From positions 1 to 43,936 of the IMG/VR virus record IMGVR_UViG_3300044844_000961: a DNA stretch of 43,936 bases; one strand, given 5' to 3'. Of this stretch, positions 4,123 through 35,732 are shown piece after piece. Below the pieces are notes generated by a model that saw only the letters and a list, made by a program, of their open reading frames with translations, had not been told where the DNA came from and made no database searches. Position 1 is the first letter of the stretch. Every line of letters starts with the position of its first letter. This DNA comes from a virus. The translations under genes and the position numbers were made by a program.

Positions 4123-4553
4123 TTTGGGGGTGGTGAGGGGTCATCGGATTGATGCTTCTGAGGTTTCTGTTCAATATCGACATCCGCAATTTTAGCCCTT
4201 GCAAGAATATCCAATACCGCCGCGATTTCGTCGTTCAGTTGCGGTGTGCAATGGCAGGCAAATTCGTAAACGGCCATTTCCCACTTTTCCCTGTCCCCAT
4301 ACACGGCTTTAGAAGCCGCTTCTGGCGTCAATGTGTGCAAATACAAAAATTCCAGCGTGGCAAAATCTGGATTCTCCATTTCTTCAAGGTTTTTGCCCGT
4401 GAGAAGTTCGTTTTTAAGCCGCTTCAAAAGAAGTCGCCGACCGCCAGAGAACGGATGTAACAACTTGCCGCCAGCCATCGGCATTGGCTTAACAAATTCA
4501 TCTTCTAGTTGCGCGGTTCTGTCCGCCTTAAACTGATCTTTTTCGTCGCTCAT
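4119..4553 (-). CDS. Tail assembly chaperone (gpG-like)
   Basis: This is a 144-residue protein with an ATGA overlap with the upstream gene. The central part is helical with LLLKRLKNELLTGKNLEEME and EFLYLHTLTPEAA, then a C-terminal Pro/Asp-rich tail ending SPPPN. The last three sense codons contain the heptamer C-CCA-AAC directly before the TAA, so a fraction of ribosomes should slip to the -1 frame and make the longer fusion. Such proteins coat the tape measure before tail tube polymerisation and are absent from the virion. The assignment rests mainly on gene order and the slip site, as chaperones diverge strongly. Confidence 0.85.
   Translation of the reverse strand: MSDEKDQFKADRTAQLEDEFVKPMPMAGGKLLHPFSGGRRLLLKRLKNELLTGKNLEEMENPDFATLEFLYLHTLTPEAASKAVYGDREKWEMAVYEFACHCTPQLNDEIAAVLDILARAKIADVDIEQKPQKHQSDDPSPPPN
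4122..4128 (-). promoter_or_regulatory. Programmed -1 ribosomal frameshift heptamer
   Basis: On the minus strand the bases read C-CCA-AAC in the chaperone frame, a canonical X-XXY-YYZ slippery heptamer, followed immediately by a TAA stop. Slipping back one base gives CCC-AAA-CTA and an open frame of 85 codons including the stop. A GC-rich GATCGCGGCGGCGG run follows about 20 bases downstream. Confidence 0.88.
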
Positions 4554-5002
4554 ATCAGGGAAAGCATTTTCTCGCGTTCTTTTTCCGTTGCATCAGGGGA
4601 AATAATAGCGAAGCGACCTCCACGGCGGATTAAAGCAGAAGGCTTTCTGTCGCGGACAAATGCGCGTAGGTTTTGGTAAGTCTCCATAAAAAACCGCAGA
4701 TAAGCGATGGGATGATCTGCGTTTGCCTCGCACCATTCTTTTGAAAGGAAACGCCGCGCAAATTCAGCGGCGTCAATTTTCTCCTCCTGTTTGATCGGAG
4801 TAAAAGTGGCAAGTTCACTTGATGGAAGCCATGCCGTTGTGCGTTTGGTTTCTCCGTTTGAAAGAACCTCTACAGTGTCGTTGTAGCCTTGATCCCGAAG
4901 CGGTATGCCGCTTACGCACATCCCCGCCACTAGCCATGTGTTTTGGGATTTTAGTGGCGGGGTATTTTCGTCTTTGATGATATGGATTTGCTCGTTAAGC
5001 AT
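4550..5002 (-). CDS. Tail-operon protein of unknown function
   Basis: This 150-residue protein is encoded between the tail-tube-like genes and the tail chaperone. It overlaps the chaperone start by 4 bases. An N-terminal beta-rich segment is followed by a helical part with EFARRFLSKEW and YLRFFMETYQNLRAF. No family is recognised. The start is the ATG at 5,002, preceded by a G-poor leader (AATCAATCAACC then ACAATCAA) that recurs before two other genes in this genome and lacks a Shine-Dalgarno sequence. Confidence 0.8.
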   Translation of the reverse strand: MLNEQIHIIKDENTPPLKSQNTWLVAGMCVSGIPLRDQGYNDTVEVLSNGETKRTTAWLPSSELATFTPIKQEEKIDAAEFARRFLSKEWCEANADHPIAYLRFFMETYQNLRAFVRDRKPSALIRRGGRFAIISPDATEKEREKMLSLI

Positions 5003-5056
5003 TTGATTGTGGTTGATTGATTTGATTGTGGGTTGTTATGCAGTTAGCGCATAAAT

Positions 5057-5392
5057 TTATCCTACTGTTACGCCGGATTTGTAGCCCTTGGCAGTAATAG
5101 AAAATGAAGGGAAGTCGTCGGCTTTTTGGGTTTCAGTAACGCCCGTAATAATAACAACAGACGCTCCAAAGTTGCTTGCCGTAATGACACTTAAAGATGT
5201 AGCGGCGATTGATGCAGGATTAGAGCCGACTCCACTTACAGAAATATCGTAAGTTGGATTGTAGCAATAGGCTTGTGCAAATGTTCCGTCTTTATCAACA
5301 ATAAGTTTTTCTTCCATCTTGCCGCTAACTTCGACAGATTGCGTAAAGCCAGTGGCACTAGAAAGACCGAAGGTAAAGGATGTGGCGGCCAT
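5057..5392 (-). CDS. Tail-tube-like protein, copy B
   Basis: This is a 111-residue, beta-rich protein and a paralogue of the next gene upstream in the operon (5,394-5,705). The C-terminal halves align: TE-x-DDFP-x-F-x-x-T-x-K-x-Y near the end and a G-x-G then Ala/Ser-rich segment before it. The N-terminal part reads TFGLSSATGFTQSVEVSG then a VDKDGTFAQAY strand. Small, all-beta proteins at this position (between connectors and chaperone) are candidate tail tube subunits. One base separates it from copy A. Confidence 0.7.
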   Translation of the reverse strand: MAATSFTFGLSSATGFTQSVEVSGKMEEKLIVDKDGTFAQAYCYNPTYDISVSGVGSNPASIAATSLSVITASNFGASVVIITGVTETQKADDFPSFSITAKGYKSGVTVG

Positions 5393-5393
5393 A

Positions 5394-5705
5394 TTAAACA
5401 GCAGGGTATTCTTTGGTTGTTACTTCAAATTGTGGAAAATCATCTACCGACTCGGTAACTTTTGCTGAAACAACCTTGGAAGAAGTTATGTTTCCAGCGG
5501 CAAGCGAAGACAGAATGCTTTTCCCGTCTCCATAGCCACGAATTGTCCGAGTTTTTGTAGAGTATTTTAGAGTTTTTGCCTCTTTGATAGAGCCTGTGTA
5601 GTCTTTAAGCTCTTTAAGTTCAACGGAATCTTCTTCCGTTACTTCTTGGACTGCGGCACTTGATGGTGCGCCCGTAATTGAAAATGTAATCCCGATTGCT
5701 GCCAT
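5394..5705 (-). CDS. Tail-tube-like protein, copy A
   Basis: This 103-residue protein shares the closing TE-x-(V)DDFP-x-F-x-x-TTKEY pattern and overall layout with the following gene, so the two arose by tandem duplication. The middle is Lys-rich (SIKEAKTLKYSTKTRTIRGYG) with the rest Ser/Thr-rich, consistent with a beta-barrel. One copy may form the tail tube and the other a terminator or tube-end subunit, or both may alternate; the sequence does not say which. Confidence 0.7.
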   Translation of the reverse strand: MAAIGITFSITGAPSSAAVQEVTEEDSVELKELKDYTGSIKEAKTLKYSTKTRTIRGYGDGKSILSSLAAGNITSSKVVSAKVTESVDDFPQFEVTTKEYPAV

Positions 5706-5706
5706 A

Positions 5707-5964
5707 TTATTCAGGTGTTAAGGTTGTTTCTTTTAGTGGAACCGACACAATTGCGGCGGTTTTTTTAACATTTGCTTGGAAGAAAAATTTTCCGTTTTGA
5801 GAATACGAAATGCGGTAATACCACCATTCGCAATTTGGCTTAAAGGCTTCAATGACCTCTGGCTTGCAACTGCAATAACCGCGAACGGCCCAGCATTCGC
5901 CAATATCGACTTGCGTAACGCCTTTAATTTCGCCAAGCGGCTTTAAAAAATCTGTGTTGCACAT
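5707..5964 (-). CDS. Small Cys/Trp-containing protein in tail operon
   Basis: This 85-residue protein is encoded one base before the tail-tube-like pair. It has cysteines at positions 2, 24, 31, 33 and 45 and an aromatic stretch CEWWYYRISYSQNGKFFFQ, suggesting a compact beta fold. No family is recognised. Location between the tail terminator-like gene and tail tube genes suggests a virion or assembly role. Confidence 0.7.
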   Translation of the reverse strand: MCNTDFLKPLGEIKGVTQVDIGECWAVRGYCSCKPEVIEAFKPNCEWWYYRISYSQNGKFFFQANVKKTAAIVSVPLKETTLTPE

Positions 5965-5983
5965 TCTAGTAAGAAGTGCGGTG

Positions 5984-6403
5984 TCAACTTCTCACAATCC
6001 CAAGCAAAATTGTAATTGTGTGAGTGTAGTTGTTCTCCTCAATCCCTAAATCCACATCCAAAATTTTCCCGCCAGCCGAGGCGTGTCCAACAGCGGCGGC
6101 GTTATAGTCTGTGAAAATTGCGGAACTATGAACGGCATTGACGATGTTTGTAACTGCTGTGCCGTGGGCATCTAGGCTCACGCTTGGGGCAGGGGATGTA
6201 ACAATAACGCGGACAGTCGCCTTCCAAAGACTGCCAACAACATTTTCGCACCGCTCGCAGGCAACAACGGCGAACGAAGTGTCGTTTGGCGTTGTTGTTT
6301 CGTCCGCCATTTTTGCAATGTGCAGAGCAGGAACAGCAGTCTCCAACGCCGCCTCAAACGCTTTTTCAATTAGTCCGGCATTCATTTTCTGTGACGCACG
6401 CAT
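5984..6403 (-). CDS. Putative tail terminator / tail completion protein
   Basis: This 139-residue protein has an N-terminal helix (LIEKAFEAALETAVP), a central strand region (VVGSLWKATVRVIVTSPAPS) and a helix plus strand ending THTITILLGIVRS. That helix-sheet pattern and the position, after a head-tail connector and before the tail tube, are those of gpU/HK97-gp10-type tail completion proteins. The assignment is by order and shape, not by a diagnostic motif. It overlaps the connector gene by 22 bases. Confidence 0.7.
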   Translation of the reverse strand: MRASQKMNAGLIEKAFEAALETAVPALHIAKMADETTTPNDTSFAVVACERCENVVGSLWKATVRVIVTSPAPSVSLDAHGTAVTNIVNAVHSSAIFTDYNAAAVGHASAGGKILDVDLGIEENNYTHTITILLGIVRS

Positions 6404-6708
6404 TCCAGCGTGACAAATGGGGTTGCAAGGTTGGATCGCACTCCGTCGAGCAAGTATTTCACATTGCCGACTTCGATAGTAACTTGAGCTTTTGGCACAA
6501 GCAAAACGCTAGACTCGTAACAGTCGCGATGAATTACAATTTCTGTAACCTCCTGTTGTTCAAATCCGCCTTTTACAAGTTTTACCGTTCCCGTGTTGTC
6601 GTTCACGGTTCCAAAAACTTCGATGCCGTTGATTAAAATAGACTGTCCAACGAGCCGAAGCGATTCGTTAAAACCGTCCATCATTGTGTTTAAGAGGTCT
6701 TTATCCAT
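6382..6708 (-). CDS. Putative head-tail connector (head closure) protein
   Basis: This 108-residue protein is the first gene after the capsid protein terminator. It has a helical start (LLNTMMDGFNESLRL), then beta strands with G-rich turns and ends LDGVRSNLATPFVTLECVRHRK. The small beta-rich fold and order (capsid, connector, terminator, tail tube) fit an FII-like head closure protein. It reads through from the capsid transcript, or from a promoter not obvious here. Confidence 0.65.
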   Translation of the reverse strand: MDKDLLNTMMDGFNESLRLVGQSILINGIEVFGTVNDNTGTVKLVKGGFEQQEVTEIVIHRDCYESSVLLVPKAQVTIEVGNVKYLLDGVRSNLATPFVTLECVRHRK

Positions 6709-6715
6709 AAGAAGA

Positions 6716-6746
6716 AAAAGCCCTGCCTTTTTAGGGCAGGGCTTTT
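6716..6746 (-). terminator. Intrinsic terminator after the major capsid gene
   Basis: An 8-bp GC-rich stem (GCCCTGCC at 6,720-6,727 with GGCAGGGC at 6,735-6,742) is flanked by A and T runs on both sides, so it can act on either strand. On the minus strand it lies 25 bases after the capsid stop and is followed by TTTTTCTTCTT. It probably stops most capsid transcripts and lowers expression of connector and tail genes. Confidence 0.85.
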
Positions 6747-6770
6747 GTTACACCAACACCGCCAGTATTA

Positions 6771-7736
6771 TTATACCTGTGTTGCTAGAAGTTCACCCGC
6801 CGTTGAATCAATAACCTTTTCAGCCGAATGCTGACGCACGCGAACCATGTCGCCGCGACGAGCTTCGTTCCGATAGGTTTCAGTCACAAAGAGGTCGGGA
6901 GCATCGCCTGTCCATACAATCTGACGGACTGCGCCGCCAGCGGCAAAGTCACCGCTTCCAGTTGTGCCGATCCAGATATAATCATCGTTCCAGATGTGTT
7001 CAAGGTTTGGCCCCTTGTTCTTGCTGGCAGTATCGTGTTTGGCGGCGGCAATGATGACATTGGCGATTCCGAAAACGGAAGCAATGTCGCCGGGGTTCAC
7101 CAAGCGTTGCTGACCAGAAGGCAAGTTGCCGAAGATGTAGGTTTGCAACTTGGCGGAACGGCGCAAGCGGTTCCAAAGGCCAAGATTCAAAACCATCGTG
7201 TTAGGAGCGATGCCTTTGCCAGTAAGACGATCAAGGGCTTCGTTCACATCACGCGCAAGGTCGATGGTAGCCAGATTAGCTTCACTATAAGCAACCGTTG
7301 TGTTGGTTGTGGTGAAGTTGGCAGGATCGTAAAGGACATTCGCGGCACGAACCTCCATTGCAAGTCGCATTTGGCGAAGAACCATCTGCGCGGTGATAAC
7401 CTCGGCATCGAAGAAGCGGGAGTAATCGCGAGCGTAAGCATCGTCAATGCGCTCCTCAAGACCACGATCAACAGTTTCAAAGGTGTCCTGTTCGTGAGCG
7501 CGGCTAGTTTCGTTATAGCTTCCATCAGGCCCGCGAAGTGTAAAGTCGGCATGACCGTCTTTAGATTTGAGCAAGTTGCCCAACGCGGTGCGAATGCGTG
7601 GGTAAATGCCCGTGCGGGTTGGGGAGCTATAAACTCCGAAGATACGAGGAGCGACCAGCAGACTCTCAATGCCTGCCGCCTCAATGACGAAGGTGTTGAT
7701 GTCGCTACGGATGATTGCGTTAGTATTGCTATACAT
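6771..7736 (-). CDS. Major capsid protein
   Basis: This 321-residue protein follows the protease/scaffold and decoration genes and precedes a terminator, the usual place for the capsid gene. It has the gpE/HK97-fold layout: an N-terminal extension, a long helix region around ARDYSRFFDAEVITAQMVLR, a conserved VLNLGLWNRLRRSAKLQTYIFG segment around residues 183-204, and a C-terminal strand region with VRQIVWTGDAPDLFVTETYRNEARRGDMVRVRQHSAEKV. It forms the icosahedral shell. Confidence 0.92.
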   Translation of the reverse strand: MYSNTNAIIRSDINTFVIEAAGIESLLVAPRIFGVYSSPTRTGIYPRIRTALGNLLKSKDGHADFTLRGPDGSYNETSRAHEQDTFETVDRGLEERIDDAYARDYSRFFDAEVITAQMVLRQMRLAMEVRAANVLYDPANFTTTNTTVAYSEANLATIDLARDVNEALDRLTGKGIAPNTMVLNLGLWNRLRRSAKLQTYIFGNLPSGQQRLVNPGDIASVFGIANVIIAAAKHDTASKNKGPNLEHIWNDDYIWIGTTGSGDFAAGGAVRQIVWTGDAPDLFVTETYRNEARRGDMVRVRQHSAEKVIDSTAGELLATQV

Positions 7737-7745
7737 GGCTTAAAA

Positions 7746-8114
7746 TTAGGCTTGAGTTTTTCCGTTGATTGCAACCGCTTCCACGAAGTCGTCGGTTGAG
7801 ACGGCGTGGAGTGCGCGATAGAGCGGGTGCTTGTTTGCGCTTTGAGTGGATGAAACTTTCCCGCTAGTTGCAGGATAGAGAAGTGCGCCGACTGTCACAG
7901 AGCCGTTGGCAATCACTTCAAAAGTTCCACTAGCATTGTGGAGCTTGATCGCAACGGCTTCGCCGCTATTGCAATCCCGTTCAACAACGCCGATGTGTTT
8001 GGAGTCGTCCGCGTCGGCGGCGATCACATTGCCGTTAGCGTCAAGCATGACGCGAGTTCCCTTGGTAAGTGCCGCAGAGGACACAAAATTACGGTATCCA
8101 GTATTATTTTGCAT
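7746..8114 (-). CDS. Capsid decoration/stabilisation protein (DUF2190-like)
   Basis: This 122-residue, beta-rich protein lies between the protease/scaffold and capsid genes, 9 bases before the capsid start. It reads LTKGTRVMLDANGNVIAADAD, then IGVVERDCNSGEAVAIKL and VGALLYPATSGKVS, the pattern of the DUF2190 or gpD-like decoration proteins whose short beta-tulip binds capsid three-fold sites. Co-position with the capsid gene supports this. Confidence 0.82.
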   Translation of the reverse strand: MQNNTGYRNFVSSAALTKGTRVMLDANGNVIAADADDSKHIGVVERDCNSGEAVAIKLHNASGTFEVIANGSVTVGALLYPATSGKVSSTQSANKHPLYRALHAVSTDDFVEAVAINGKTQA

Positions 8115-8116
8115 AT

Positions 8117-9076
8117 TTAGATTAGTTGAAGTCCTTTGGAAATGAGGTCAGCTTTACGCAGTTCGGGGAACTGTTTTTCAGCCAGCTTGATTGCCTCGGT
8201 TTGTTTCAAGCCAGCGTTTTGGCGAACAACCGCCGCAACCGCTTCGCTGAAATCTTTTGGAGCGGAAGCCTGCGAAAACTCGTTGTTTGCCGCAGGTGTC
8301 GCGTTGTTTGAAATGCTTTTGAGAGTTTCGGAAAGAGCTTCAAACTTGGCGTCAAGCTCGCTCATCTTGGATGAAAAATCATCCTTCGACAAAGCATCGC
8401 TCATTTCCTCGTCGTCTTCCTCTTTAACCATTGCTCGCTTAATTTCGCCAAGCAACGACTCAAGGCTCGCAAAACGCTTTTCGCTGTTTTCGCGCCATTC
8501 ATCAGTTTTGGTTTGCCAATCTTTCATTTTAATTTCTTCCTCTTTTTCAGGTTCAGGTTGGTTTTTTGTGTCGCCCATACAAACATTGTTTTTAGTGTCA
8601 ACTAATACCTCGCTCAAAAGACCATCTGGATTTGCGGCTGGATCGGTTACGATGTCGCAACTGCGAATCCTAGAGCAACGGGCGTATGTTTCTCCGTCTT
8701 TTGTTTCATGTTGACCATGAATGCTTACAGACATCCCGAAAGTGTCTGGCAGTTCGCGGGCAAGTTCCAAGATGTGCGCCACTTTTTCTGCGGTTTTCAA
8801 CAAATGCAGATCGGCCTTGAGCTTGTCACCCTCGATGCGGAAGTTTTTAACGCTTCCAACGATGCTAAATACGCCGCCGCCGTGATCGACTTTGACTTTT
8901 ACGCCGTTTTGAAACTCGTTTGCCGCCGACAACACTTGCTCCAAGGTCGTGTCGTCAATCATCAACTCATGCCCCCGTGCTGGGCCTTTGGTCATTACGG
9001 AAACATTGCGAATAATTCCGGCGTCAAAATCAATTTCGCCAGATTCGGCAAAGCACAGAAAGGGCAAGTTCTTCAT
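8117..9076 (-). CDS. Prohead protease fused to scaffold domain
   Basis: Residues 1-160 form a serine protease of the prohead type: VKVDHGGGVF places a candidate catalytic His at 65, and LPDTFGMSVSIH a candidate Ser at 116, followed by CDIVTDPAANPDG. Residues 165-319 are charged and helical, with Lys/Glu-rich coiled coil and a final helix ELRKADLISKGLQL. This is the usual scaffold half that is cleaved away during capsid maturation. The 319-residue length fits a protease-scaffold fusion. It acts inside the procapsid on the capsid and scaffold proteins. Confidence 0.88.
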   Translation of the reverse strand: MKNLPFLCFAESGEIDFDAGIIRNVSVMTKGPARGHELMIDDTTLEQVLSAANEFQNGVKVKVDHGGGVFSIVGSVKNFRIEGDKLKADLHLLKTAEKVAHILELARELPDTFGMSVSIHGQHETKDGETYARCSRIRSCDIVTDPAANPDGLLSEVLVDTKNNVCMGDTKNQPEPEKEEEIKMKDWQTKTDEWRENSEKRFASLESLLGEIKRAMVKEEDDEEMSDALSKDDFSSKMSELDAKFEALSETLKSISNNATPAANNEFSQASAPKDFSEAVAAVVRQNAGLKQTEAIKLAEKQFPELRKADLISKGLQLI

Positions 9077-9096
9077 GCCCTATCCATGATGTCAAT

Positions 9097-9486
9097 TTAG
9101 ACCATTTTAGAAACTGCCATTTTGCTCCAAAACTTGCACGACCAATACCGTGCTTTCCACTTGGGGCCGGGGCTTGAGCAATTGTGCCGCGAGCGAAAAT
9201 TCTTTCGGGCGTTAGGATCGTCCCGTTTGATGCTCATGTTTGGATCGCCAAAGTTGACCTTAACGATATTCCCCTTGTCGTTCTTTACATACACCGAGAA
9301 TTTTTTCGGGCCTTTGGGAGTGCGGAAGGGCTTATTGAGTTTCTTTTGTGCCTCGCCTAATTCTACTTCGTCCGAAACATCTTCGGAATAGCCGTGTTCG
9401 GCTTCGCAAAAGTTAGCGATGTGATTTTGATAAAGGTCGTTGACCTTTTTCATGCAACAGCAGGGCTTCTTTTTATTGGGCGACAT
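9097..9486 (-). CDS. Conserved phage morphogenesis-linked protein with GDPNMSIKRDDP motif
   Basis: This 129-residue basic protein carries FRTPKGPKKFSVYVKND, VNFGDPNMSIKRDDP and FRSRHNCSSPGPKWKARYWSC, a block I associate with structural regions of many aquatic phages. Four cysteines near the N terminus (CCC at 9-11, then C27) and two more near the C terminus (positions 103 and 117) suggest metal binding. It lies between the portal and protease genes, so a head assembly role is inferred. It overlaps the upstream gene by 14 bases. Function is unknown. Confidence 0.78.
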   Translation of the reverse strand: MSPNKKKPCCCMKKVNDLYQNHIANFCEAEHGYSEDVSDEVELGEAQKKLNKPFRTPKGPKKFSVYVKNDKGNIVKVNFGDPNMSIKRDDPNARKNFRSRHNCSSPGPKWKARYWSCKFWSKMAVSKMV

Positions 9487-9766
9487 AAATAGGAGGAACG
9501 GCGAGTTTAAGCCGTTCGGCTAGGCGTTGGGTGTAATCAGAGGGGAGGGGAAGCATCGGGCATTCTTTTATCATTTGTTCGACTTGCTCGGCTTCCGCCT
9601 TCCCTGAAGTTACAAAAGATTTCCAAGCTGGAACTGAATCGTTCTCCATCAGTTCGTAACAATACGATGCTGGGCCAATCTCCGCGAGAAGGTCAACATC
9701 AGCCCCTTCGTAGTCTTCTGGTCTAGGGCGGTTTTCGTCGGTGTTTTCGTCAGCGATGTAATACAT
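9473..9766 (-). CDS. Acidic protein of unknown function in head operon
   Basis: This 97-residue protein starts MYYIADENTDENRPRPEDYEG and is strongly acidic in its first half, with a helical second half (AEAEQVEQMIKECP and YTQRLAERLKLAV). It lies 3 bases after the portal gene and overlaps the next gene by 14 bases. No family is recognised. Confidence 0.72.
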   Translation of the reverse strand: MYYIADENTDENRPRPEDYEGADVDLLAEIGPASYCYELMENDSVPAWKSFVTSGKAEAEQVEQMIKECPMLPLPSDYTQRLAERLKLAVPPIYVAQ

Positions 9767-9769
9767 AAT

Positions 9770-12700
9770 TTAAGGTTGGAACCTATAATTTTCCTCGTCG
9801 TCGCCAGCCCACGCAAGTTGATTCCACTCGGAAATTTTTTCGCGCAGTTTGCTCAAAGAGGTTCTGCCAATAGCCGCGCCTCGCGGAACGGCGTTTCTGT
9901 CTTTTTGACTGCGGATTCGCGGACTGCCAACCCCCTTAAAGACATAAACAATTTTATCATTTACCGGAATGCGGACTCCACCGTTTGCGAGCCGTTTTAT
10001 TTTTCTGGCATCGACAACAATTGTCATGGTCGGAGCTTTTAATTTTGTTGATTCCTTGTGTTTGCGTTGGCGGCATTCTTTTCTGGAAGTGGCTTTGAGT
10101 TCTTTGATTTCTACGCCGCCAATCCCAATGCCCTTCACTTCGGCTAACACCAAGCGGGATTTTCCGTTAATAGACGCCCGCACATGAAGGTCGCTTGGGT
10201 TCCACCTTGATTTCCCGTCTTTAGCGTCAACCTGCATTTCCATGATTTTTGCATTTAAAACGCGAGCGAGGGTCTTCTCGATGTTTTTGGATTCCAAAAT
10301 TGCCGCCGAGGATTGCGCTGTGTAGTTCTCTTTGGCGCGTTTGGACTTGATTGTGGCAATAATTTTCTTCTGATCGCCTCCGCCGCCACCCGCGCACTTG
10401 TTGCCCGACTTAAAGCCGCCTGCTCCCGTTCCGCAGTTGAACTCCGAAAGCTGTTGGGCTTTTTTTCTATATTTAATCCAATCGCAATCGTCTTCTGTTT
10501 CTTCAATTATGATCTCGTCGGCAAAATCGCTGTTTTCGCTTCCCCACCATTTTTTTGGTGGTTGGTGCTTATCGCGAGCGGATTCGCCATCAAATACATT
10601 TTCTATTTTTATTGGATTTGATGACATGACAACAACCTCGCTTTCTTCCTCCATACCGAATCCTAAAGAGGCAAAAGAAAATATGTCTTTGGGTTTAATT
10701 TTGGCTTCAATCACGCGTTCTCCAAACGCCTCTGCTATGCCTTTTGATAATGACCAAGAAGACAAAGCGTTCCCTTGCCATTTTTGTCCCGCTTTTGGGC
10801 CTCCTCCAGAAAACGCATTATTTGTAACGCCCCGATACAGTGTTATTGAGCTTGTGACTCCAATTTCCTTCAACCGTGCTTGCGTTAATTTGTAGCTCAT
10901 AGAAGCCACTTCTTCAGCCGCTTTGTTTTTTTTGGGATTTTTTTTATACTTCGCAATCAATTTTTTTTGGAACGATGTAAGTTTTGCGCCATATAATTTT
11001 TGCGCCGCTAGATGCAATGGCGCGGTAGCGGCACTATTAGATTGAGAGTTCCATTCTTCTACGAGTCTATTGAAGTTCTCAAAAAGTTTTGTGTTTTTCT
11101 CATCGTCCCAATCTATGCCCTGATCTTTCCACCAATCAAAACCATAGTATTTAGCTATGGCTCGGAGCAGTTTTGATTCCGGCTTGAGCTTCTTTTTAAC
11201 TTTTATTTTAGCTCTGACGGTTTTCTTTTTTGAAACTTTTTTGTTTCCACCACCGCCACCGCCACCCGCGCACTTGTTACCCGACTTAAAGCCCCCCGCT
11301 CCTGTCCCGCAGTTAAACTCTAATATGTGCTTGTCACAAAGTTCAGAGAGAGCCTGTTTGTTTACTTTTTTTTTTACTTCTGGCGGGGCAGGGGCTTCTT
11401 CCGCTTGCTGTTCCTGTGTCGGGTTAGGATTGCGTTGCGACAACCTATCAAGCGAAATTCCGTATTCTTTTGAAAGTCTGTCGAGGGTCTGTTGTTCGCG
11501 AGCGAGTTGTTCAAACTCCTCCTCCCAATCCTTTCCCTGTTCCGCGTAAATGTCCGAAGCGGTTTTTAATCCCAGCTTGTGTTCTTCAATGTTAGCCGCG
11601 CTCTCGCGCCCTATATCGGCAGTCGGCCATGCCGAAAACTGCCAACGCCCCACGCGCCAGTTTTTAATCGCTTTGATGTAGTTGTTTGAGATCGCCCACG
11701 CAAAGAAGCTGTCCTTGATTGGATCGAGAACATTTTCAGTAACGAGTTGTTGGTATCTAGCGCAGGCTCGCCGCGCCTTTTGGCTTTCAAGACGACCCGT
11801 AACGCCTCCGCTATCTTTCGAGTTTACAAAAAAGCCGTATGGAATTTGCAGAGCAAGGCAAACCTGCCGTTCCAGTTGTTCAATAAACGCCTCAAATGTT
11901 GCGTTAGGTCTTGCTGTTTGGAACGGCTTGATGCTTTCGCCTTCGTGGAAATAATTGATCGCCCCGTAATTGACTTCTTCAATTTTGTTCCCGCGTGAAT
12001 CTGTTGTTGTTGCCCACTCGTCCGGCTCGCCGCCTTTTCGTTCCACAATCGCGGTGTTGCTGCTGTTCCACTTAACTGCAAACTTCTCATACCGCAAAAT
12101 GTCATAGATGTCGCGGCAGGTTGGAATTGCGGTGTCCAGAGCGGTTATGCCGCGATATTGGTCAATTCGCAACGGATCAAAGATGTGCAAGAATTGATTT
12201 GCAGGAACATCAATCGGATCGACATACATCCCCTCTCTTGTTCTGCGAAAAATACGGTAGGCTTTAGGCTCGCCCGTCTTTGGGTTTACAATGACGCCGC
12301 TAAAATAGCTGTCTAACTCGTCAGTATTAGTCATCCAGTTTTCGTGAGGTCGCCCGATTCTGTCAGCTTCAATAAGTTGAAGCCTGAAATCGGCTCCGCT
12401 CATGCGCTTTACAAGCCCGCAATCGCCATCGCGAAGCATTGCGATAAATGCAAGACGCACCATTGAGGCAAAATTGTGTCTTCCCGAAAAGTCTGCTTTT
12501 TTGCACCAAGTCTCCCACGCTTCTTCGTATTCGGTATCACGGTTTGGATTTCCTGTTCGCGCTTGGTAGCGAATTGTTCCAAAAGTGTAGGTTGCAAGCT
12601 CCATCAACAGACCCCGCACAAGCGGACTGTTTTGCATCAGGTCGCGAGATTCGGCCATGAGTTGCACCCTATCGCGAGCAGATGAATGGTTTTCGCTGGA

Positions 12701-12859
12701 AATGGTATCGTGCATCCCAACGAGTTGCCTATCTCGCGAAGGCATTGCGCCCTCATAGCGAAATTCTGTCAGCATTTCTTTGGCTTTCAGCCTGCGAACA
12801 GCCGCCGCCGGATTGACAATCTCAAGTAGTTTGTCGATGAAATTTGTTTTCGGCTTCAT
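9770..12859 (-). CDS. Portal protein with ADP-ribosyltransferase-like and PD-(D/E)XK-like C-terminal extensions
   Basis: At 1,029 residues this is about twice a normal portal. Residues 1-480 are a lambda gpB-like portal (LVRGLLMELATYTFG, MLRDGDCGLV, NQFLHIFDPLRIDQYRG, QIPYGFFVNSKDSGGVTGRLE). A Pro/Glu-rich hinge leads to a Cys/Gly linker (514-538: FNCGTGAGGFKSGNKCAG plus Gly run). Residues 560-755 look like an R-S-E ADP-ribosyltransferase: ITLYRGV (Arg 676), LSSWSLSKGIAEAFG (Ser 700-703) and EEESEVVV (Glu 739/741). An almost identical linker follows at 806-828. Residues 830-1029 contain PSDLHV (Asp 890) and LAEVKG (Glu 907, Lys 909), a PD-(D/E)XK-like pattern. The portal part is the DNA gate of the head; the extensions would be packaged with or injected from the virion. 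Domain calls are by motif only. Confidence 0.85.
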   Translation of the reverse strand: MKPKTNFIDKLLEIVNPAAAVRRLKAKEMLTEFRYEGAMPSRDRQLVGMHDTISSENHSSARDRVQLMAESRDLMQNSPLVRGLLMELATYTFGTIRYQARTGNPNRDTEYEEAWETWCKKADFSGRHNFASMVRLAFIAMLRDGDCGLVKRMSGADFRLQLIEADRIGRPHENWMTNTDELDSYFSGVIVNPKTGEPKAYRIFRRTREGMYVDPIDVPANQFLHIFDPLRIDQYRGITALDTAIPTCRDIYDILRYEKFAVKWNSSNTAIVERKGGEPDEWATTTDSRGNKIEEVNYGAINYFHEGESIKPFQTARPNATFEAFIEQLERQVCLALQIPYGFFVNSKDSGGVTGRLESQKARRACARYQQLVTENVLDPIKDSFFAWAISNNYIKAIKNWRVGRWQFSAWPTADIGRESAANIEEHKLGLKTASDIYAEQGKDWEEEFEQLAREQQTLDRLSKEYGISLDRLSQRNPNPTQEQQAEEAPAPPEVKKKVNKQALSELCDKHILEFNCGTGAGGFKSGNKCAGGGGGGGNKKVSKKKTVRAKIKVKKKLKPESKLLRAIAKYYGFDWWKDQGIDWDDEKNTKLFENFNRLVEEWNSQSNSAATAPLHLAAQKLYGAKLTSFQKKLIAKYKKNPKKNKAAEEVASMSYKLTQARLKEIGVTSSITLYRGVTNNAFSGGGPKAGQKWQGNALSSWSLSKGIAEAFGERVIEAKIKPKDIFSFASLGFGMEEESEVVVMSSNPIKIENVFDGESARDKHQPPKKWWGSENSDFADEIIIEETEDDCDWIKYRKKAQQLSEFNCGTGAGGFKSGNKCAGGGGGDQKKIIATIKSKRAKENYTAQSSAAILESKNIEKTLARVLNAKIMEMQVDAKDGKSRWNPSDLHVRASINGKSRLVLAEVKGIGIGGVEIKELKATSRKECRQRKHKESTKLKAPTMTIVVDARKIKRLANGGVRIPVNDKIVYVFKGVGSPRIRSQKDRNAVPRGAAIGRTSLSKLREKISEWNQLAWAGDDEENYRFQP
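10376..10444 (-). repeat. Linker module copy 2 in portal gene
   Basis: This stretch encodes EFNCGTGAGGFKSGNKCAG followed by five Gly. The DNA is close to the copy at 11,246-11,320 (about 85% by eye over some 65 bases). The conserved Cys pair and Gly run separate the ADP-ribosyltransferase-like domain from the nuclease-like domain. Confidence 0.9.
11246..11320 (-). repeat. Linker module copy 1 in portal gene
   Basis: This stretch encodes EFNCGTGAGGFKSGNKCAG followed by seven Gly, joining the portal domain to the ADP-ribosyltransferase-like domain. It repeats at 10,376-10,444 at both protein and DNA level, which would let the intervening 0.8 kb domain be lost or swapped by recombination. Confidence 0.9.
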
Positions 12860-13110
12860 ATACGAAATGAGGCAAGGGTTTTGTATGTCCTTTTGCGGCG
12901 TTTTTCATTTAAGGCTTTGGTCGCCGCCTCTAGTTTTTCAGCCACAAATTGAATGTCCCTGCTTGCGGTAATTCCTCCACCGCTATTGTTTGTAAATTCA
13001 GAGCGGTATTTTATTTTTAAGGTTTCGATTTCAACCTCTAATTCATCAACGGAAAAAGATCGGTAAATCAGCAAGTGGTCGGCAGGCATACTAATTGCCC
13101 TCCCTGTCAA
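12856..13110 (-). CDS. gpW-like head completion / head-tail joining protein
   Basis: This 84-residue protein sits between large terminase and portal, the position of lambda gene W. It is mostly helical, with FSVDELEVEIETLKIKYRSEF and ASRDIQFVAEKLEAATKALNEKRRKRT and a basic C terminus, matching the gpW helix-turn-helix layout in length and charge. It overlaps the terminase gene by 20 bases and the portal start by 4 (ATGA). Confidence 0.72.
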   Translation of the reverse strand: MTGRAISMPADHLLIYRSFSVDELEVEIETLKIKYRSEFTNNSGGGITASRDIQFVAEKLEAATKALNEKRRKRTYKTLASFRI

Positions 13111-14863
13111 CAGCCGTTGGCTCGCTTACGGCAATCTTCGTTATCATTGCCGCCACAAGATTCATGCACTCGCAGTCAAAAGCGTGGTTGTCTTTGCGGA
13201 TTTGAAGCCATTCGTAGCTCACTCGTCCCTTGGCATCCACCCGTTCTTCGCGGATTTCGGCGGTAACTTCATCGAGATATTGTTGCGATATGTCGGCTGG
13301 AATTTCCCACGATGAAGCGAGTCCTCTCATGTGTTGCAACAGAATGTCTTTAGTCAAATGGTTAGCCCAAAGAAACAGCTTAACAGGCTTGAGTTTTCCT
13401 TGCAGAGAAGTTCCGATTGCGGGGTCTGCCCGTGAACTCGTCCAGCATCGGCGAACCCCATCGTGAGAATAAGCCTGCACTCCGTCTCCCTTGAATGCCT
13501 TCCACTTGTGTTCGCTTTTGACGATTTCCTGATAAACAACCGTGGCGTTGTAGCCCGTATCAATCACAACATCATCGTTGTCCACGCCAAGATCGACAAT
13601 CAACTGCCGCAACTCGTCCCAATTCCACACGCGCCCGTAGTCAACAAGTCTGCTTGTCCCTCCGTTGCCCCAAGCCCGACACAGGTAAACCAAGTGGTCT
13701 TTCTGCACATCGACTGACAAGAACCTTCGTTTCTCATCTTTCCAAGTGCTACGAAGCGTGTAGTCGGTTTTGCGTTCCTCAAGCCACTTCCAATCTTTGA
13801 TGTCCTTCATTGCATCCTCCCAAGGTTGACCAAGGGATTCGTTGATGAATGATTTCAGTTTTTCATGGTCGTGCCATGTTAGGCTTTTGTGCGCCTGTAA
13901 AAACTCCTCGACCAAATCGCGCCACCTAACCCACGGGGGAAGCATGGCATTCCAAGTGAAGCTAATTCGGTTTGCGGGAGCGTCAGGATTGTGGGCAATC
14001 CACTCACCACTTAAAGCGAGGGCGCGTCGATCCTGCGGCTTGTCATGGATATGGTGATTGCACTTCGGGCATTCCAAGTGAATCGTCGGGGCAAGTTTGT
14101 CGAAATTCCAAACCCCGTTTGGTCTGGTTTGTTCGTTGTCGTCCCACTTTAACTGCTCCCATTGAATGTGGAAGCGTCCTTTGCACTTCGGGCATTGAAC
14201 ATAGAAGTGCCGCTGATCCCCGCTCAAAAAGGCTTGATGAACCTCGTCGTGTTGCGAGTCCGGCGTTGAGATAATAACGCGCCTTGCATTCCAGAATGCC
14301 CGTGTTCGCTTTAAAACCATCTCCAATGCCCCTGCCGGATAGTTGCGAACTTCATCCAGAAAAAGCCATCGGATCGGCTTTGATTGCAGTTTTGAAGGAC
14401 TGTTTGCGCCGTTTACGATCAGAGGCATCGAGGCAAAGTCGATTTCAGTTCCGCGAATGCCGCCTCGTTCTTTCGGCATCAGGTCGGCAACGGGCTTGCA
14501 GTCTTCAAGTGTTGGCAACAGTCGTGTTCTGAAAAATGTCTTTGCTTCATCCTGTGCCGCCATAACCCACATGGCGGGGCCAGCATCTTCGGCAATCGCC
14601 CACGCCAACAGAATCATAATCGTTTGCGTTTTCGATGACTGCGCCGAACACATCACGGAGATTTCCGAAACGGCATTATCCGAAAACACCTCCATCAGAG
14701 ATTTTGTCCAAGGTGCGGTGTCGGCGCGAAACTTGCCAGCAAACGGCGATGTCTTGTCGATTACAATGTTGTCCTCGGCCCATGCCCACGGAGGGCGGCG
14801 GTCAATAGGTCGCCACGCCTCCCGCGCCGTTTTCTCAATAAGGCTAATCCCACTTTTTTTCAT
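13091..14863 (-). CDS. Terminase large subunit (GpA family)
   Basis: This 590-residue packaging motor has the lambda GpA layout. A degenerate Walker A-like SAQSSKTQ lies at 73-80, Walker B WLFLDEV at 166-172, and the coupling-type segment RRVIISTPDSQHDEVHQAFLSGD follows. Two CPKC motifs near 225 and 265 form a Zn-binding pair typical of GpA. The nuclease domain begins with FLSVDVQKDHLVYLCRAWG and continues with VVIDTGYN and HAFDCECMNLVAA. It cuts and pumps DNA through the portal. GpA terminases usually work at cos sites; no cos site was identified here. Confidence 0.93.
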   Translation of the reverse strand: MKKSGISLIEKTAREAWRPIDRRPPWAWAEDNIVIDKTSPFAGKFRADTAPWTKSLMEVFSDNAVSEISVMCSAQSSKTQTIMILLAWAIAEDAGPAMWVMAAQDEAKTFFRTRLLPTLEDCKPVADLMPKERGGIRGTEIDFASMPLIVNGANSPSKLQSKPIRWLFLDEVRNYPAGALEMVLKRTRAFWNARRVIISTPDSQHDEVHQAFLSGDQRHFYVQCPKCKGRFHIQWEQLKWDDNEQTRPNGVWNFDKLAPTIHLECPKCNHHIHDKPQDRRALALSGEWIAHNPDAPANRISFTWNAMLPPWVRWRDLVEEFLQAHKSLTWHDHEKLKSFINESLGQPWEDAMKDIKDWKWLEERKTDYTLRSTWKDEKRRFLSVDVQKDHLVYLCRAWGNGGTSRLVDYGRVWNWDELRQLIVDLGVDNDDVVIDTGYNATVVYQEIVKSEHKWKAFKGDGVQAYSHDGVRRCWTSSRADPAIGTSLQGKLKPVKLFLWANHLTKDILLQHMRGLASSWEIPADISQQYLDEVTAEIREERVDAKGRVSYEWLQIRKDNHAFDCECMNLVAAMITKIAVSEPTAVDREGN

Positions 14864-26286: not shown

Positions 26287-26560
26287 CGCCGAAAACCCCC
26301 TTGTCTCCGCTTTGCGGGGGCAAGGTTGGGTGACGGCGAAACGGTTGAGTTTCCATCTAGGGACAGGAGATCGCGAGCTTCGCGCAATGGCGGAGGCTTC
26401 TCGCGGCGAAATCATCAGCGGACAGAAGGGCTACAAGCTCTCTGCCGAAGCAACATTAGACGAGATCGACCACGCGGCGAATTGGTTGATTTCACAAGGA
26501 AAAAAGATGCTTGAGCGCGGCATCGAAATTCGCCGCAGAGCGCATCAAAAAATCAAATGA
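26249..26560 (+). CDS. Winged-helix-like small protein in recombination operon
   Basis: From ATG 26,249 with ribosome-binding site AAAAGGAGG this is 103 residues (MTEQLSLFL). It reads GWVTAKRLSFHLGTGDRELR, then GEIISGQKGYKLSAEATLDEI and ISQGKKMLERGIEIRRRAHQ. The layout (helix, helix, beta-wing GYKL, long helix) suggests a DNA-binding winged helix, commonly found between SSAP and exonuclease genes of phages. It overlaps the upstream gene by 38 bases and the next by 4. Confidence 0.78.
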   Translation: MTEQLSLFLTNNNAENPLVSALRGQGWVTAKRLSFHLGTGDRELRAMAEASRGEIISGQKGYKLSAEATLDEIDHAANWLISQGKKMLERGIEIRRRAHQKIK

Positions 26561-27648
26561 ACACACACACACACGACACACTAATTGAAGATGAGCGGAG
26601 CGGCTTGCCGTCTGCCTCTAACACCGAAGCCCTTCTGCTCTGCCCTGCGCGTTGGCGCATGGAAAAGATGGTGGGGATTGAAGAAGAACGCAGTGAAATT
26701 GCGGATCGCGGAACACGCATCCATTCGGCAATTGAAACAGGCAAGGGCGACGATTTAAGCGCGGAGGATTTTGCAGAGGCGCGATTGATCGTGAGCCACG
26801 AAACCGAGGCGATCACGGCTTGGTGCTTGCAGATCGGAGCGGATGATGTCGAGAGGACAATCCGCGAAGAAAGAATGTGGATGAAGATTGACGGCAAGCC
26901 CGCATTCAGCGGAAAGCCGGACGCTGTTCACATTGTCGGCAAGCATGGATTGGTTGTCGATTACAAGACGGGATTCAAGCGAGTGACAGACGCGAGTGAG
27001 AATCCGCAAATTGCGGCTCTGGCGGTTCTGGCGGCTCAAGAATACGGGCTGGAATCGGTTCGCGGAATTATCATTCACTCTCGGTTCGGCGTGACGGCGG
27101 CAGATTTTGAAATCTCCGATTTGAACTATTGGACGCACACGCTCCGAATGATGCTTCGCAACGCGCAGGATGAAACGCTTCCTCCTGTTGCTGGTGAAAA
27201 GCAGTGCGCGTATTGCCGAGCATTCGCCATGTGTCCAGCGGCACGGAAGAATGTTGCCGATGTCTTTAACGGAGCGGTTGCGCCAGTGATTTCTCCGCGT
27301 GAATTAGAGGTCTTTCCTTTAGTCGAAAAATACATCGCGGAGCGGCGGCGTCTGGCGAAGCTCGCGCTGAAAAGCGGCGTCGAAATTGAGGGCTGGCAAC
27401 TCGGAACTCCGAAGCGTCTTTGCAAGGTTACGGACATCAGCAAGGCGTGGGAGATTGTTGACGGCAAAATCCCCGTCGAAGCGTTTGTTGGATGTTGCGA
27501 TGTCTCCGTTCCAAAAGCGGCTGATGCGCTGGCGAAGGGCTTAAACATTGGCAAGAAGGCGGCTCGCGTTCAGTTGGAAGAACTGTGGGCAGAGTGCATG
27601 ACGGTGACTGAATCCGAGGCTCCCTTGTCGCGAAAGGAGGTTAAATGA
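26557..27648 (+). CDS. Cas4/RecB-type PD-(D/E)XK exonuclease
   Basis: This 363-residue protein has the RecB-family nuclease core: GTRIHSAIE (His 56), FSGKPDAVHIV (Asp 122), VVDYKTGF (Asp 135, Lys 137) and a QIAALAVLAAQEYG helix. A Cys at 29 (LLLCPARW) with three near 207-216 (KQCAYCRAFAMCPA) matches the Fe-S cluster pattern of Cas4/AddB-type nucleases. It is a likely 5'-3' exonuclease partner for the annealing protein. The ATG overlaps the upstream stop (ATGA). Its first codons are themselves an AC repeat (NTHTHDT). Confidence 0.88.
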   Translation: MNTHTHDTLIEDERSGLPSASNTEALLLCPARWRMEKMVGIEEERSEIADRGTRIHSAIETGKGDDLSAEDFAEARLIVSHETEAITAWCLQIGADDVERTIREERMWMKIDGKPAFSGKPDAVHIVGKHGLVVDYKTGFKRVTDASENPQIAALAVLAAQEYGLESVRGIIIHSRFGVTAADFEISDLNYWTHTLRMMLRNAQDETLPPVAGEKQCAYCRAFAMCPAARKNVADVFNGAVAPVISPRELEVFPLVEKYIAERRRLAKLALKSGVEIEGWQLGTPKRLCKVTDISKAWEIVDGKIPVEAFVGCCDVSVPKAADALAKGLNIGKKAARVQLEELWAECMTVTESEAPLSRKEVK

Positions 27649-30587: not shown

Positions 30588-30766
30588 TGGAGGCTTTAAA
30601 AGATTACATCAGGGCAAAAAAGCTAGACGAGAAGCGCATTCTGAACCTCCTGCAAGATTACGGAATCATCAGTGATATGTGCGTAACGGTTGAAGAAGTC
30701 GGCGATGCCGGAAAAGCGGTCGCTTGGCTTGAGTTAAAATTGGACTCGTTGAGCCGCCTTGACTGA
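30587..30766 (+). CDS. Small early protein, unknown function
   Basis: From ATG 30,587 this is 59 residues (MEALKDYIRAKKLDEKRILN), helical and charged. It starts in the previous gene's stop and ends 33 bases inside the convergent integrase gene. No family is recognised. Confidence 0.65.
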   Translation: MEALKDYIRAKKLDEKRILNLLQDYGIISDMCVTVEEVGDAGKAVAWLELKLDSLSRLD

Positions 30767-31786
30767 GTGGCTTTCCCGCAGGTGTCCGTAGGTCTTGAGC
30801 GCAAGAACTCCTCCATCCTTGTGACCAAGCCAACTGGCAACTGTGGGAATGTCCACGCCGCTTTCAATGCAGGTCGTGGCGAACAAGTGACGCAAATCGT
30901 GGTGAGTGATTCTTTCCATTCCCACTGTGTCCGCCGCCCTCGTCATAGCCTTTTCCGCCTCGCCAACGCGCAAGACAAAATCAGATTTTTTTGGCAAGCG
31001 TTCTAAAAGGTTTTTCAACGCAGGAATAATTGGAATCCATCGTTCAACGCCGCCTTTAGTCTCGCGCAGAATCAACCTGTCTCGGCTCGCGTCAATGTCG
31101 CGCCACTTCACATTCTTCGCCTCGTTCAGCCTCGCGCCTGTAAACGCCAAGAACTCCACAAGGTCGGCACACGCGCCCGATTTCCACGACTTCTTTTTAG
31201 AGTTGGGGAATCGCATAACCTCGACAAAGCGTTTGAAGGTTTCTTTGTCCGGCAACACAAGGTTTTTGGCTTTTGGGCGAACCTTCTTTGTATCGGCAGA
31301 AGGATCGGCAAACAACAAGCCCGCCCGCCTCGCGTGGTCAAACGCCATTCGGAGGCTTCCCAGCATATTGTTGGCAAGCGGAGGGCTGAACCTTTGTGAA
31401 ATTCTTTTGAACCATTCCTCGCAGTCGCGAGGCTGGACTTCTCGCGGCTTCATTTCTTTCAACTCAGGCCAAGTGGCATGAAGTCGATTGATCGTGAACT
31501 CTCGGTAATCGCGGCTTCGCTCGCGCAAGCCCGTCTTGTGGCGGGCCGCGTCAATCACAAGGTCGATACAATCGCCCATTGTCTGCACATCCGCTGTTGG
31601 AGCGGCGTTGAGGCAATAGCGAATCTCCTTGAGCTTTTCGGGAAGCATCGCCTTGGCAACGCTGATGGATTTGGTCTTGAGGCTCTGGCGCACGATTTGG
31701 CCGCGCACCTTGACGCGCACATAGAAAGTGCCGCTTTCGGTATTCTGAATCAGGTGTTGTGTTGTTGTAGGTTTCCAAGTGGTCAT
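30734..31786 (-). CDS. int: Tyrosine integrase
   Basis: This 350-residue protein is a tyrosine recombinase. An N-terminal arm-binding part and a SAM-like core-binding domain (about 65-170, with RSRDYREFTINRLHATW) precede the catalytic domain. The catalytic residues are Arg 219 (FTGARLNEA), Lys 244 (ETKGG), His 296 and Arg 299 (HHDLRH), His 322 (WLGHKDGG) and Tyr 333 (KTYGHL). It faces the attP site directly upstream (31,840-31,883). It inserts the phage into the host Arg(ACG) tRNA gene. Confidence 0.95.
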   Translation of the reverse strand: MTTWKPTTTQHLIQNTESGTFYVRVKVRGQIVRQSLKTKSISVAKAMLPEKLKEIRYCLNAAPTADVQTMGDCIDLVIDAARHKTGLRERSRDYREFTINRLHATWPELKEMKPREVQPRDCEEWFKRISQRFSPPLANNMLGSLRMAFDHARRAGLLFADPSADTKKVRPKAKNLVLPDKETFKRFVEVMRFPNSKKKSWKSGACADLVEFLAFTGARLNEAKNVKWRDIDASRDRLILRETKGGVERWIPIIPALKNLLERLPKKSDFVLRVGEAEKAMTRAADTVGMERITHHDLRHLFATTCIESGVDIPTVASWLGHKDGGVLALKTYGHLRESHSVKAAQRVQF

Positions 31787-34520: not shown

Positions 34521-35732
34521 TTAGTTGGTGGTTACTGTCCAGCCTCGGGCTTGCAAGGTTTGTTTGTCGGTGATTCCTTGTCCGGTAGGGGCCGCATTTC
34601 CTGTGCCGCCGAGTTGGATGGTGCAAGTGTTGGTGGGGGTCTTGACGCGTCCTGCGGCGACAAATGCGGCGAGGATGGCGTTTACGGCAGCAGCAGTGAG
34701 TTGATTGGTGTTCGCCCAAAAATCGCCGAGCGTTGCTGATACCGTGCCGCCTGCGAAGCCTGTGAGCTTCGTAGTTCCTCTCTGAGCATCGGCGCGGAAT
34801 ATGGCGAGGGCGGTGTGGGAGGAAAGATTTGGAATGTCTCCGGTGTGCAAACACCCAGAACACCAGAAATTCGTCAGCGTCGGGCGCACACTTAAATCCT
34901 GTATAGGGCCAGCAACATCGTTGTTGGAATACGCAAGGCTAGTGCAAGCAGGGTGATCCGTGAGAAGTGGAGGAGTCCCTGTGAAGCGCGTCGTTTTGTT
35001 TTGGCCTACATTCATGGAAACAATCTTCGAGTTTGCTCCAGTGGGGAGAATAGGGAATGCGCCGGACAGCAGGTTGGCGTGGATATGTAAACTCGTAAGG
35101 TTATTCAGCGCAGATAGATTTAGGTTGCTGCCCGTTAATGAGGAGTTGTTGATAAGGACTGCGGCTAGAGTTGTAATAGCCGAGAGGTCTGGGAATGCTC
35201 CTGTCCAATTTATGTATTGGTTGCCCACCCTACCCGCAAAATTCAGTGTGCGAAGGTTGGGTTTATTGGTAAGAGTCTCAAAGCCAACTTGGTTAAATTC
35301 ATTATCGCGTAAATCTATATCAACAAGATTCGTAAGCGATCCGTAGCCTTGGAAATTGGTGATGCCGTTGCCTGCGCAGATAATGCTAGTGAGGTTTGGG
35401 AAACTAGAGACATCAATCGTCCCGCCGAGCTTGGGCGAGCTTGTGCCGCAAGTAATTCTGGTTACGCTGGATGGCGGGGAAAGGTCGAGTGTAGTAGAAG
35501 ACGCGGTCAGGTCGGTCGAGATATTGCTGGTGAGAGCCGTGGACGCGGAGCCTAGCAAAGCGTTCACAGCCCCAGTGAAAACGGCACGGAAGCCAGTGAT
35601 CGTGCTAGACAAGCCAGAGGCAAAAGTCCACAGCTCTTCCTTGGCCGCCGACCATACAAGCGTCATTCCCCGATACACTGCCATGACATCGGTAGTGCCT
35701 TTTTTGATCTTCTTGGCCTGATTAAGAATCAT
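34521..35732 (-). CDS. Leucine-rich-repeat tail or receptor-binding protein
   Basis: This 403-residue protein has an N-terminal attachment segment (1-70) with KKGTTDVMAVYRGMTLVWSA, then LRR-type repeats of about 22-25 residues through the centre: FPNLTSIICAGNGITNFQGYG, SLTNLVDIDLRDNEFNQV, KPNLRTLNFAG, ALNNLTSLHIHANLLSGAFP and others. A C-terminal block LQARGWTVTTN ends the protein. LRR proteins bind other proteins, so host surface recognition is likely. It follows two fibre genes and precedes the lysis cassette, as receptor-binding proteins often do. Confidence 0.85.
   Translation of the reverse strand: MILNQAKKIKKGTTDVMAVYRGMTLVWSAAKEELWTFASGLSSTITGFRAVFTGAVNALLGSASTALTSNISTDLTASSTTLDLSPPSSVTRITCGTSSPKLGGTIDVSSFPNLTSIICAGNGITNFQGYGSLTNLVDIDLRDNEFNQVGFETLTNKPNLRTLNFAGRVGNQYINWTGAFPDLSAITTLAAVLINNSSLTGSNLNLSALNNLTSLHIHANLLSGAFPILPTGANSKIVSMNVGQNKTTRFTGTPPLLTDHPACTSLAYSNNDVAGPIQDLSVRPTLTNFWCSGCLHTGDIPNLSSHTALAIFRADAQRGTTKLTGFAGGTVSATLGDFWANTNQLTAAAVNAILAAFVAAGRVKTPTNTCTIQLGGTGNAAPTGQGITDKQTLQARGWTVTTN

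Follow-up and report, generated by a model that had tools for sequence, protein, structure and literature searches.

The gene at 9770..12859 on the minus strand of the window (the whole stretch of DNA that was analysed, a virus record in IMG/VR with a length of 43,936 bases) encodes a lambda-type portal protein followed by two C-terminal modules. Our best explanation, to which we assign a probability of about 0.6, is that these modules would be an exchangeable two-enzyme cargo on the portal, in which each enzyme has its own Cys-Gly connector and is loaded, released, and delivered to the host.

The gene is a single uninterrupted open reading frame of 1,029 amino acids. Residues 43 to 343 match the Pfam family Phage_portal_2, and a C-terminal extension of ∼520 residues lies behind the portal part. 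The features on which the argument draws are given below from the 5' end of the gene's strand (L298, L299, and L300 are relatives of the window phage or of its portal).

13091..14863, minus strand: terminase large subunit, context (PHROG 15, E = 2.9e-110)
11420..12859, minus strand: portal protein proper, residues 1-480, lambda family (PF05136, E = 1e-49; PHROG 21 portal, E = 2.9e-56)
11246..11320, minus strand: connector 1, residues 514-538, EFNCGTGAGGFKSGNKCAGGGGGGG, core C517-C530 at 11270-11311 (self-comparison, motif scans, end of homology with L298)
10445..11245, minus strand: ADP-ribosyltransferase (ART) module (DRAT match, catalytic residues, pLDDT, fold matches, G+C)
10625-11104, minus strand: DRAT Pfam match, residues 586-745 (PF07357)
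10832-10834 (R676), 10757-10759 (S701), 10643-10645 (E739), and 10637-10639 (E741), minus strand: ART catalytic residues (alignment of 17)
10376..10444, minus strand: connector 2, residues 806-828, EFNCGTGAGGFKSGNKCAGGGGG, core C809-C822 at 10394-10435 (repeat search)
9773..10375, minus strand: PD-(D/E)XK-like module, residues 829-1029 (homology to the C-terminal domain of the L299/L300 portal)
9473..9766, minus strand: 97-aa acidic ORF, pI 4.2, directly downstream of the basic cargo (inside the block absent from L298)
9463..11275, minus strand: block exchanged relative to L298 (blastn; topoisomerase IB in L298)
6771..7736, minus strand: major head protein, context (PHROG 1005, E = 9.2e-25)

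The head module around the gene is of normal make-up, with terminase small and large subunits, portal, decoration/scaffold-type protein, and major head protein. The original prediction, a portal carrying an ART-like and a nuclease-like region, was borne out by the one open frame and the Pfam match, and the motifs that it had quoted are found at the residues it gave (LYRGV at 674-678, LSSWSLSKG at 699-707, EEESEVVV at 737-744, NPSDLHV at 887-893, and LAEVKG at 905-910). A frameshift or misassembly, which had been named as grounds for abandoning that prediction, is ruled out by a frame that is open over its full length and by relatives that also bear long enzymatic C-terminal extensions: L298, whose portal is 86% identical, and L299/L300, whose portal is 50% identical and whose extension (in L299) is homologous to the last module of the window gene. 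An apparent 100% identity between L048 and the window portal was a non-overlapping alignment artefact, the sequence being a different protein tail. The view that such portal fusions are unusual was only partly right, as the literature already has portals fused to ART, PBECR, 2H, InPase, and Nudix domains (PMC9503650, PMC5512222).

We are highly confident that the first module is an ADP-ribosyltransferase domain, as had been proposed. The Pfam DRAT profile scores 36.5 bits, above its curated cutoff of 25, and the residues R676, S701, E739, and E741 (R-S-ExE) are invariant across 17 aligned ART homologues (alignment A5), giving the assignment strong support. The alignment drew on six homologues in loci fetched by the connector and about twenty from a search with the ART alone, and the identity of the window ART to its relatives is 19 to 26%. 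Such an E-x-E pair characterises arginine-type transferases. AlphaFold gave the ART core a pLDDT of about 90. Comparison with PDB structures by Foldseek returned a list made up mostly of ARTs, headed by a CNFy fragment (domains 4-5) and followed by ExoS/T and other ART toxins; no match reached an E value of ≤1e-3 (best, 1.3e-3) and TM scores were low, partly because ∼90 disordered residues were included in the query. Searched against a viral library, the same module matched a DEDDh-domain protein and a head-morphogenesis protein of a phage, with E values of about 1e-8. The G+C content of the ART module is 0.399 versus 0.491 for the portal. Close-relative scans with the ART region alone or the nuclease region alone found nothing, and tblastn with both regions against 50,697 phage records returned no relatives. 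A local blastp cluster linking the window ART to 26 modules was discarded because it originated in low-complexity sequence.

The last module is basic (pI 10.3) and is, by its sequence, a probable DNA-cutting domain. The C-terminal domain of the L299/L300 portal, found by a separate search with the window portal, is 33% identical to residues 829 to 1029, in a comparison of two distinct sequences. Common to both are E861, NPSD890, E907-V-K909, and a tail F-x-G-V-G-x-P-R, and E861, D890, E907, and K909 form the candidate active site. With the whole module as query, no match was returned in Pfam, PHROG, NCBIfam, or PDB, and the A4 scan returned only the nuclease relatives already known. Since the AlphaFold model of this module is unusable (pLDDT, 36.8), we infer the fold, which is likely to be PD-(D/E)XK; the order of elements is compatible with an alpha-beta-beta-beta-alpha-beta core. 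The nuclease claimed originally therefore has the conserved E..PSD..EVK pattern of one independent family on its side, and on the other an unusable model and no profile match. That both C-terminal modules are decaying, inactive passengers is very improbable. The distance of the ART from its relatives and the lack of close relatives of the window nuclease would suit decay, but all four catalytic residues of the ART have been kept, as have those of PSD..EVK, and the frame is long and uninterrupted.

What joins these modules to the portal? One copy of a 23-residue peptide, EFNCGTGAGGFKSGNKCAGGGGG, which the earlier reading had missed, lies ahead of each module. The second copy was detected at an E value of 4.2e-14, and the DNA of the two connectors is identical at 69 of 87 bases over the aligned stretch. 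The connector has the form C-G-T-G-x-G-G-F-x-x-G-N-x-C, and there is a sister form, C-P-T-G-x-G-G-G-[IV]-D-N-x-C. A scan of IMG/VR with the strict connector motif recovered 45 loci, the relaxed motif at least 120 stretches, and the sister form at least 120 further stretches, making well over 200 for both forms together. A logo of 177 copies reads [DN]-C-G-T-G-[AS]-G-G-F-[KQ]-x-G-N-x-C-[AGS], then glycines; its position 2, which was left free in the relaxed search, is G in 176 of the 177. Both forms are present in the same contigs, and between L163 and L245 one form substitutes for the other behind upstream sequence that is 93% identical. At the third codon positions of the invariant residues, copies agree in only 42%, and this wide variation indicates that the conserved unit is the peptide and not the DNA. 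A slippery site was rejected as an explanation of the connector, as its codons vary freely. AlphaFold predicts no fold for the connector (pLDDT, <50). Intermediate or related tags were seen at two further loci: L059 has the intermediate tag CGREAGGRFGANNNC, and in L301 a third type of tag, similarly laid out (GGxFxPxG), stands at the start of two ORFs (4400-4960, ..WDESKVRREGGRFAPKGGG, and 4977-5615, ..WDEAKHPRKGGKFAPKGTG) that follow a relative of the window portal with no extension.

The connector is nearly absent from 84,980 GTDB bacterial and archaeal genomes, in which it had 2 matches. This imbalance with the at least 120 stretches in IMG/VR may mean that the hosts are uncultivated or that the phages are rarely lysogenic. 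A link between the connector and a lytic lifestyle was considered and given up, as the window itself encodes a tyrosine integrase (30734..31786, minus strand; PF00589, E = 1.6e-18), from which the window phage is probably temperate. Elsewhere the window encodes a PDDEXK_1/DUF2800 protein (26557..27648, plus strand), probably a recombination or exonuclease gene, and a leucine-rich-repeat protein (34521..35732, minus strand; LRR_4 just above cutoff). A 26-aa connector query by tblastn against the 50,697 phage records returned nothing, a weak test given low-complexity filtering.

Association of the connector with such modules was also seen in a shuffle-controlled test, independent of selection by motif, on 279 kb of sequence retrieved through homology to the ART, the portal, or the nuclease. 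This set contained nine connectors in all, of which the L298 portal has one and ORFs with an ART have the other eight; shuffled sequence gave none. The CGTG connector is missing in 13 of 21 newly found ART homologues, whose fusion partners are MuF, a different type of portal, or other proteins, and the nuclease domain of L299/L300 is joined to its portal without it; the connector is thus common and not obligatory.

Exchange of cassettes almost certainly happens at the connector. By blastn, L298 aligns collinearly with the window over 18832 to 11275, with 84% of the DNA identical; this stretch stops where connector 1 ends, and homology returns from 9462 onward at 77% identity. In L298 (6001-8697) the portal is joined via the connector to the catalytic domain of a topoisomerase IB (PF01028 Topoisom_I, 32.1 bits versus a cutoff of 23.7). 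Because homology with this 84% identical phage stops precisely at the connector, behind which that phage has a topoisomerase IB instead, the modules are, at the level of sequence, an exchangeable cassette of predicted effectors behind a shared tag. Among ORF pairs with upstream sequence at least 70% identical, downstream sequence was unrelated in 239 of 569, and 454 pairs had the converse pattern, pairs being non-independent events in these counts. In a set of eight loci (L003, L005, L006, L010, L011, L016, L027, and L030), the ORFs have tails (..GAGAFSTSFRPT..NAWAMARVNKFLKM..) that are nearly identical as far as the connector, behind which the cargo differs (by eye JAB-like HxHP, metallopeptidase-like, ParB-like, and ART-like); the set is a natural series for studying exchange.

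The exchanged block also contains the 97-aa acidic ORF, at the place where L298 has an unrelated 77-aa acidic ORF (pI 4.3). No homologue of the 97-aa ORF was found, and L299 is without an acidic ORF downstream; a partner, immunity protein, chaperone, or loading factor is possible. Beyond the block, a conserved Cys-containing head-module protein (9097..9486, minus strand; PHROG 7595) is kept in L298.

One alternative for head-associated viral ARTs is that the enzyme acts on phage or packaging components, or shields the portal from host defence, instead of attacking the host (PMC9503650). We regard this as rather unlikely here: an ART and a topoisomerase IB are swapped on the same carrier with no change in the remainder of the head module, which argues that no portal-specific job is conserved.

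The connector recurs on other carriers and with other cargo. Among 66 distinct sequences upstream of a first connector, portals of three Pfam families account for 42 (Phage_portal, 24; Phage_portal_2, 16; Portal_Mu, 2), and others are S78 prohead protease (5) and MuF (1). The 114 distinct downstream modules include ART-PolyVal (9), ADPrib_exo_Tox (6), ART (4), and Zeta toxin (4), where the ART family counts may overlap, and more rarely DRAT (1), PARP (1), and GNAT. As a control, 112 connector-free ORFs of the same contigs were mainly capsid, S78, head-tail connector, and terminase genes, and the 25 families listed for them include neither an ART nor a Zeta family (nine single-member families are unlisted, and in high-GC contigs some of the control ORFs are unlikely to be real genes); for ART-PolyVal alone, cargo and control differ with a Fisher P value of 0.003.

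Three settings of the connector can be distinguished: behind a portal, protease, or MuF protein; at the N-terminus of free proteins; and between the modules of long polyproteins. In 55 of 224 ORFs the motif lies ≤80 aa from the 5' stop, where it tags the N-terminus of a protein that stands alone; one of these proteins is an Ntox46. Copies both at the N-terminus and between modules were found in L260 (five), L109 (four), and L046 (three), and one protein with four connectors ends in a PARP-type ART. The L260 protein (5333-12988; 2,552 aa) has connectors at residues 45, 386, 1454, 1610, and 1983; DUF5824 is the sole recognition above cutoff, and most of its cargo modules are unmatched.

The main rival to reading the connector as a tag is that it is a mere flexible, possibly disulfide-closed linker and recombination joint, with the cargo tethered and acting in the head on packaged DNA or in assembly. 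We consider this plausible, if short of probable. It accounts for the glycine runs after the motif, for exchange at the junction, and for the absence of a predicted fold, but not readily for a peptide that stays constant despite wide synonymous variation or for connectors at the N-terminus of free-standing proteins, where a linker is needless; cargo such as Zeta kinase, Ntox46, and ART also fits host targets. The use at the N-termini of free proteins suggests recognition rather than mere flexibility. On these sequence patterns, the chance that the connector is a release or loading tag and not a plain linker falls just short of even.

Portal C-termini point to the head interior in known structures, so that cargo fused there should sit within the capsid, around the portal. 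The portal stays in the capsid and is not ejected, and cargo acting in the host would need a release step, which the original proposal of twelve copies delivered with the DNA does not supply. No other conserved element is suitably placed for this step, which makes the connector the obvious candidate. In the mechanism that we propose, the portal would bear, each behind its own connector copy, a mono-ADP-ribosyltransferase of the arginine type and a domain that probably cuts DNA. The connector would be recognised during head maturation as a head-loading and/or cleavage tag, the freed enzymes would enter the host along with the DNA, and there the ART would modify host proteins and the nuclease-like domain act on host DNA. 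Delivery of the cargo into the host is the outcome that we favour, with some reserve. More tentatively, the connector may be a general phage head tag that a head protein or a maturation protease reads in trans; unrelated enzymes, either free or as extensions of a portal, protease, or MuF protein, would thereby be loaded into the capsid, cut loose, and injected. No protease or cleavage consensus was identified for the connector, and the glycine tails behind it are also compatible with a simple flexible linker.

Several known systems resemble this arrangement in part. MuF polymorphic toxins carry C-terminal toxin domains, including ARTs, on a portal-adjacent head protein, and co-injection with DNA has been proposed for them (PMC5576092). 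Exchange of the C-terminal domain between related proteins, a trait of those toxins, is found here too (window versus L298; 239 of 569 pairs), but the carrier here is the portal and not MuF, and the conserved Cys-Gly connector is unmentioned in that paper. Polyvalent proteins combine several enzymatic domains in one virion-associated polypeptide and include portal fusions to PBECR, 2H, and InPase; the window protein likewise has at least two enzymatic domains (one only predicted) encoded with virion genes, whereas that paper describes no connector, makes no mention of a linker or cysteine, and contains neither ART plus PD-(D/E)XK nor topoisomerase IB on a portal (PMC5512222). The DRAT match and R-S-ExE residues are shared with DRAT enzymes and other R-S-E ARTs, among them portal- or head-fused viral ARTs (PMC9503650), but nitrogenase regulation, as for DRAT, is implausible here, and the domain belongs to a cassette that is exchanged behind a common tag.

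T4 Alt, a head-packaged ART whose propeptide is cut off by the prohead protease and which is ejected into the host, is a precedent for a head-loaded, trimmed, and injected ART (PMC9026906). The T4 capsid targeting sequences are short N-terminal propeptides on separate proteins (PMC9026906), unlike the Cys-containing box found here on carriers and free cargo, whose cleavage is putative. The RIX domain of T6SS effectors embodies a like idea, a conserved marker by which delivered effectors of diverse kinds can be recognised, but it is a whole domain and belongs to the T6SS, in contrast to a 14-residue box of the phage head (PMC10435454). Enzyme fusions to portal and MuF proteins are thus already known, and the present combination is a new example of them (PMC5512222, PMC5576092, PMC9503650). 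The connector tag was not found described in the literature searched, which takes in few subscription journals and preprints, and none of six strings of the motif occurs in those papers; the sharing of one connector among carriers, exchange bounded by it, and its use on free proteins appear to be undescribed there.

How enzymes are sorted into the head and released is poorly understood for tailed phages beyond T4 and the giant phages. A 14-residue tag that is found over several head-protein families with swapped enzymes makes head loading a directly testable question, and it gives a way to find injected effectors, otherwise difficult to spot, from their sequence. If the connector is indeed a general head tag, hundreds of host-takeover and counter-defence effectors would be identifiable by sequence alone. 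These findings suggest that portal fusions are a general delivery route and not isolated curiosities.
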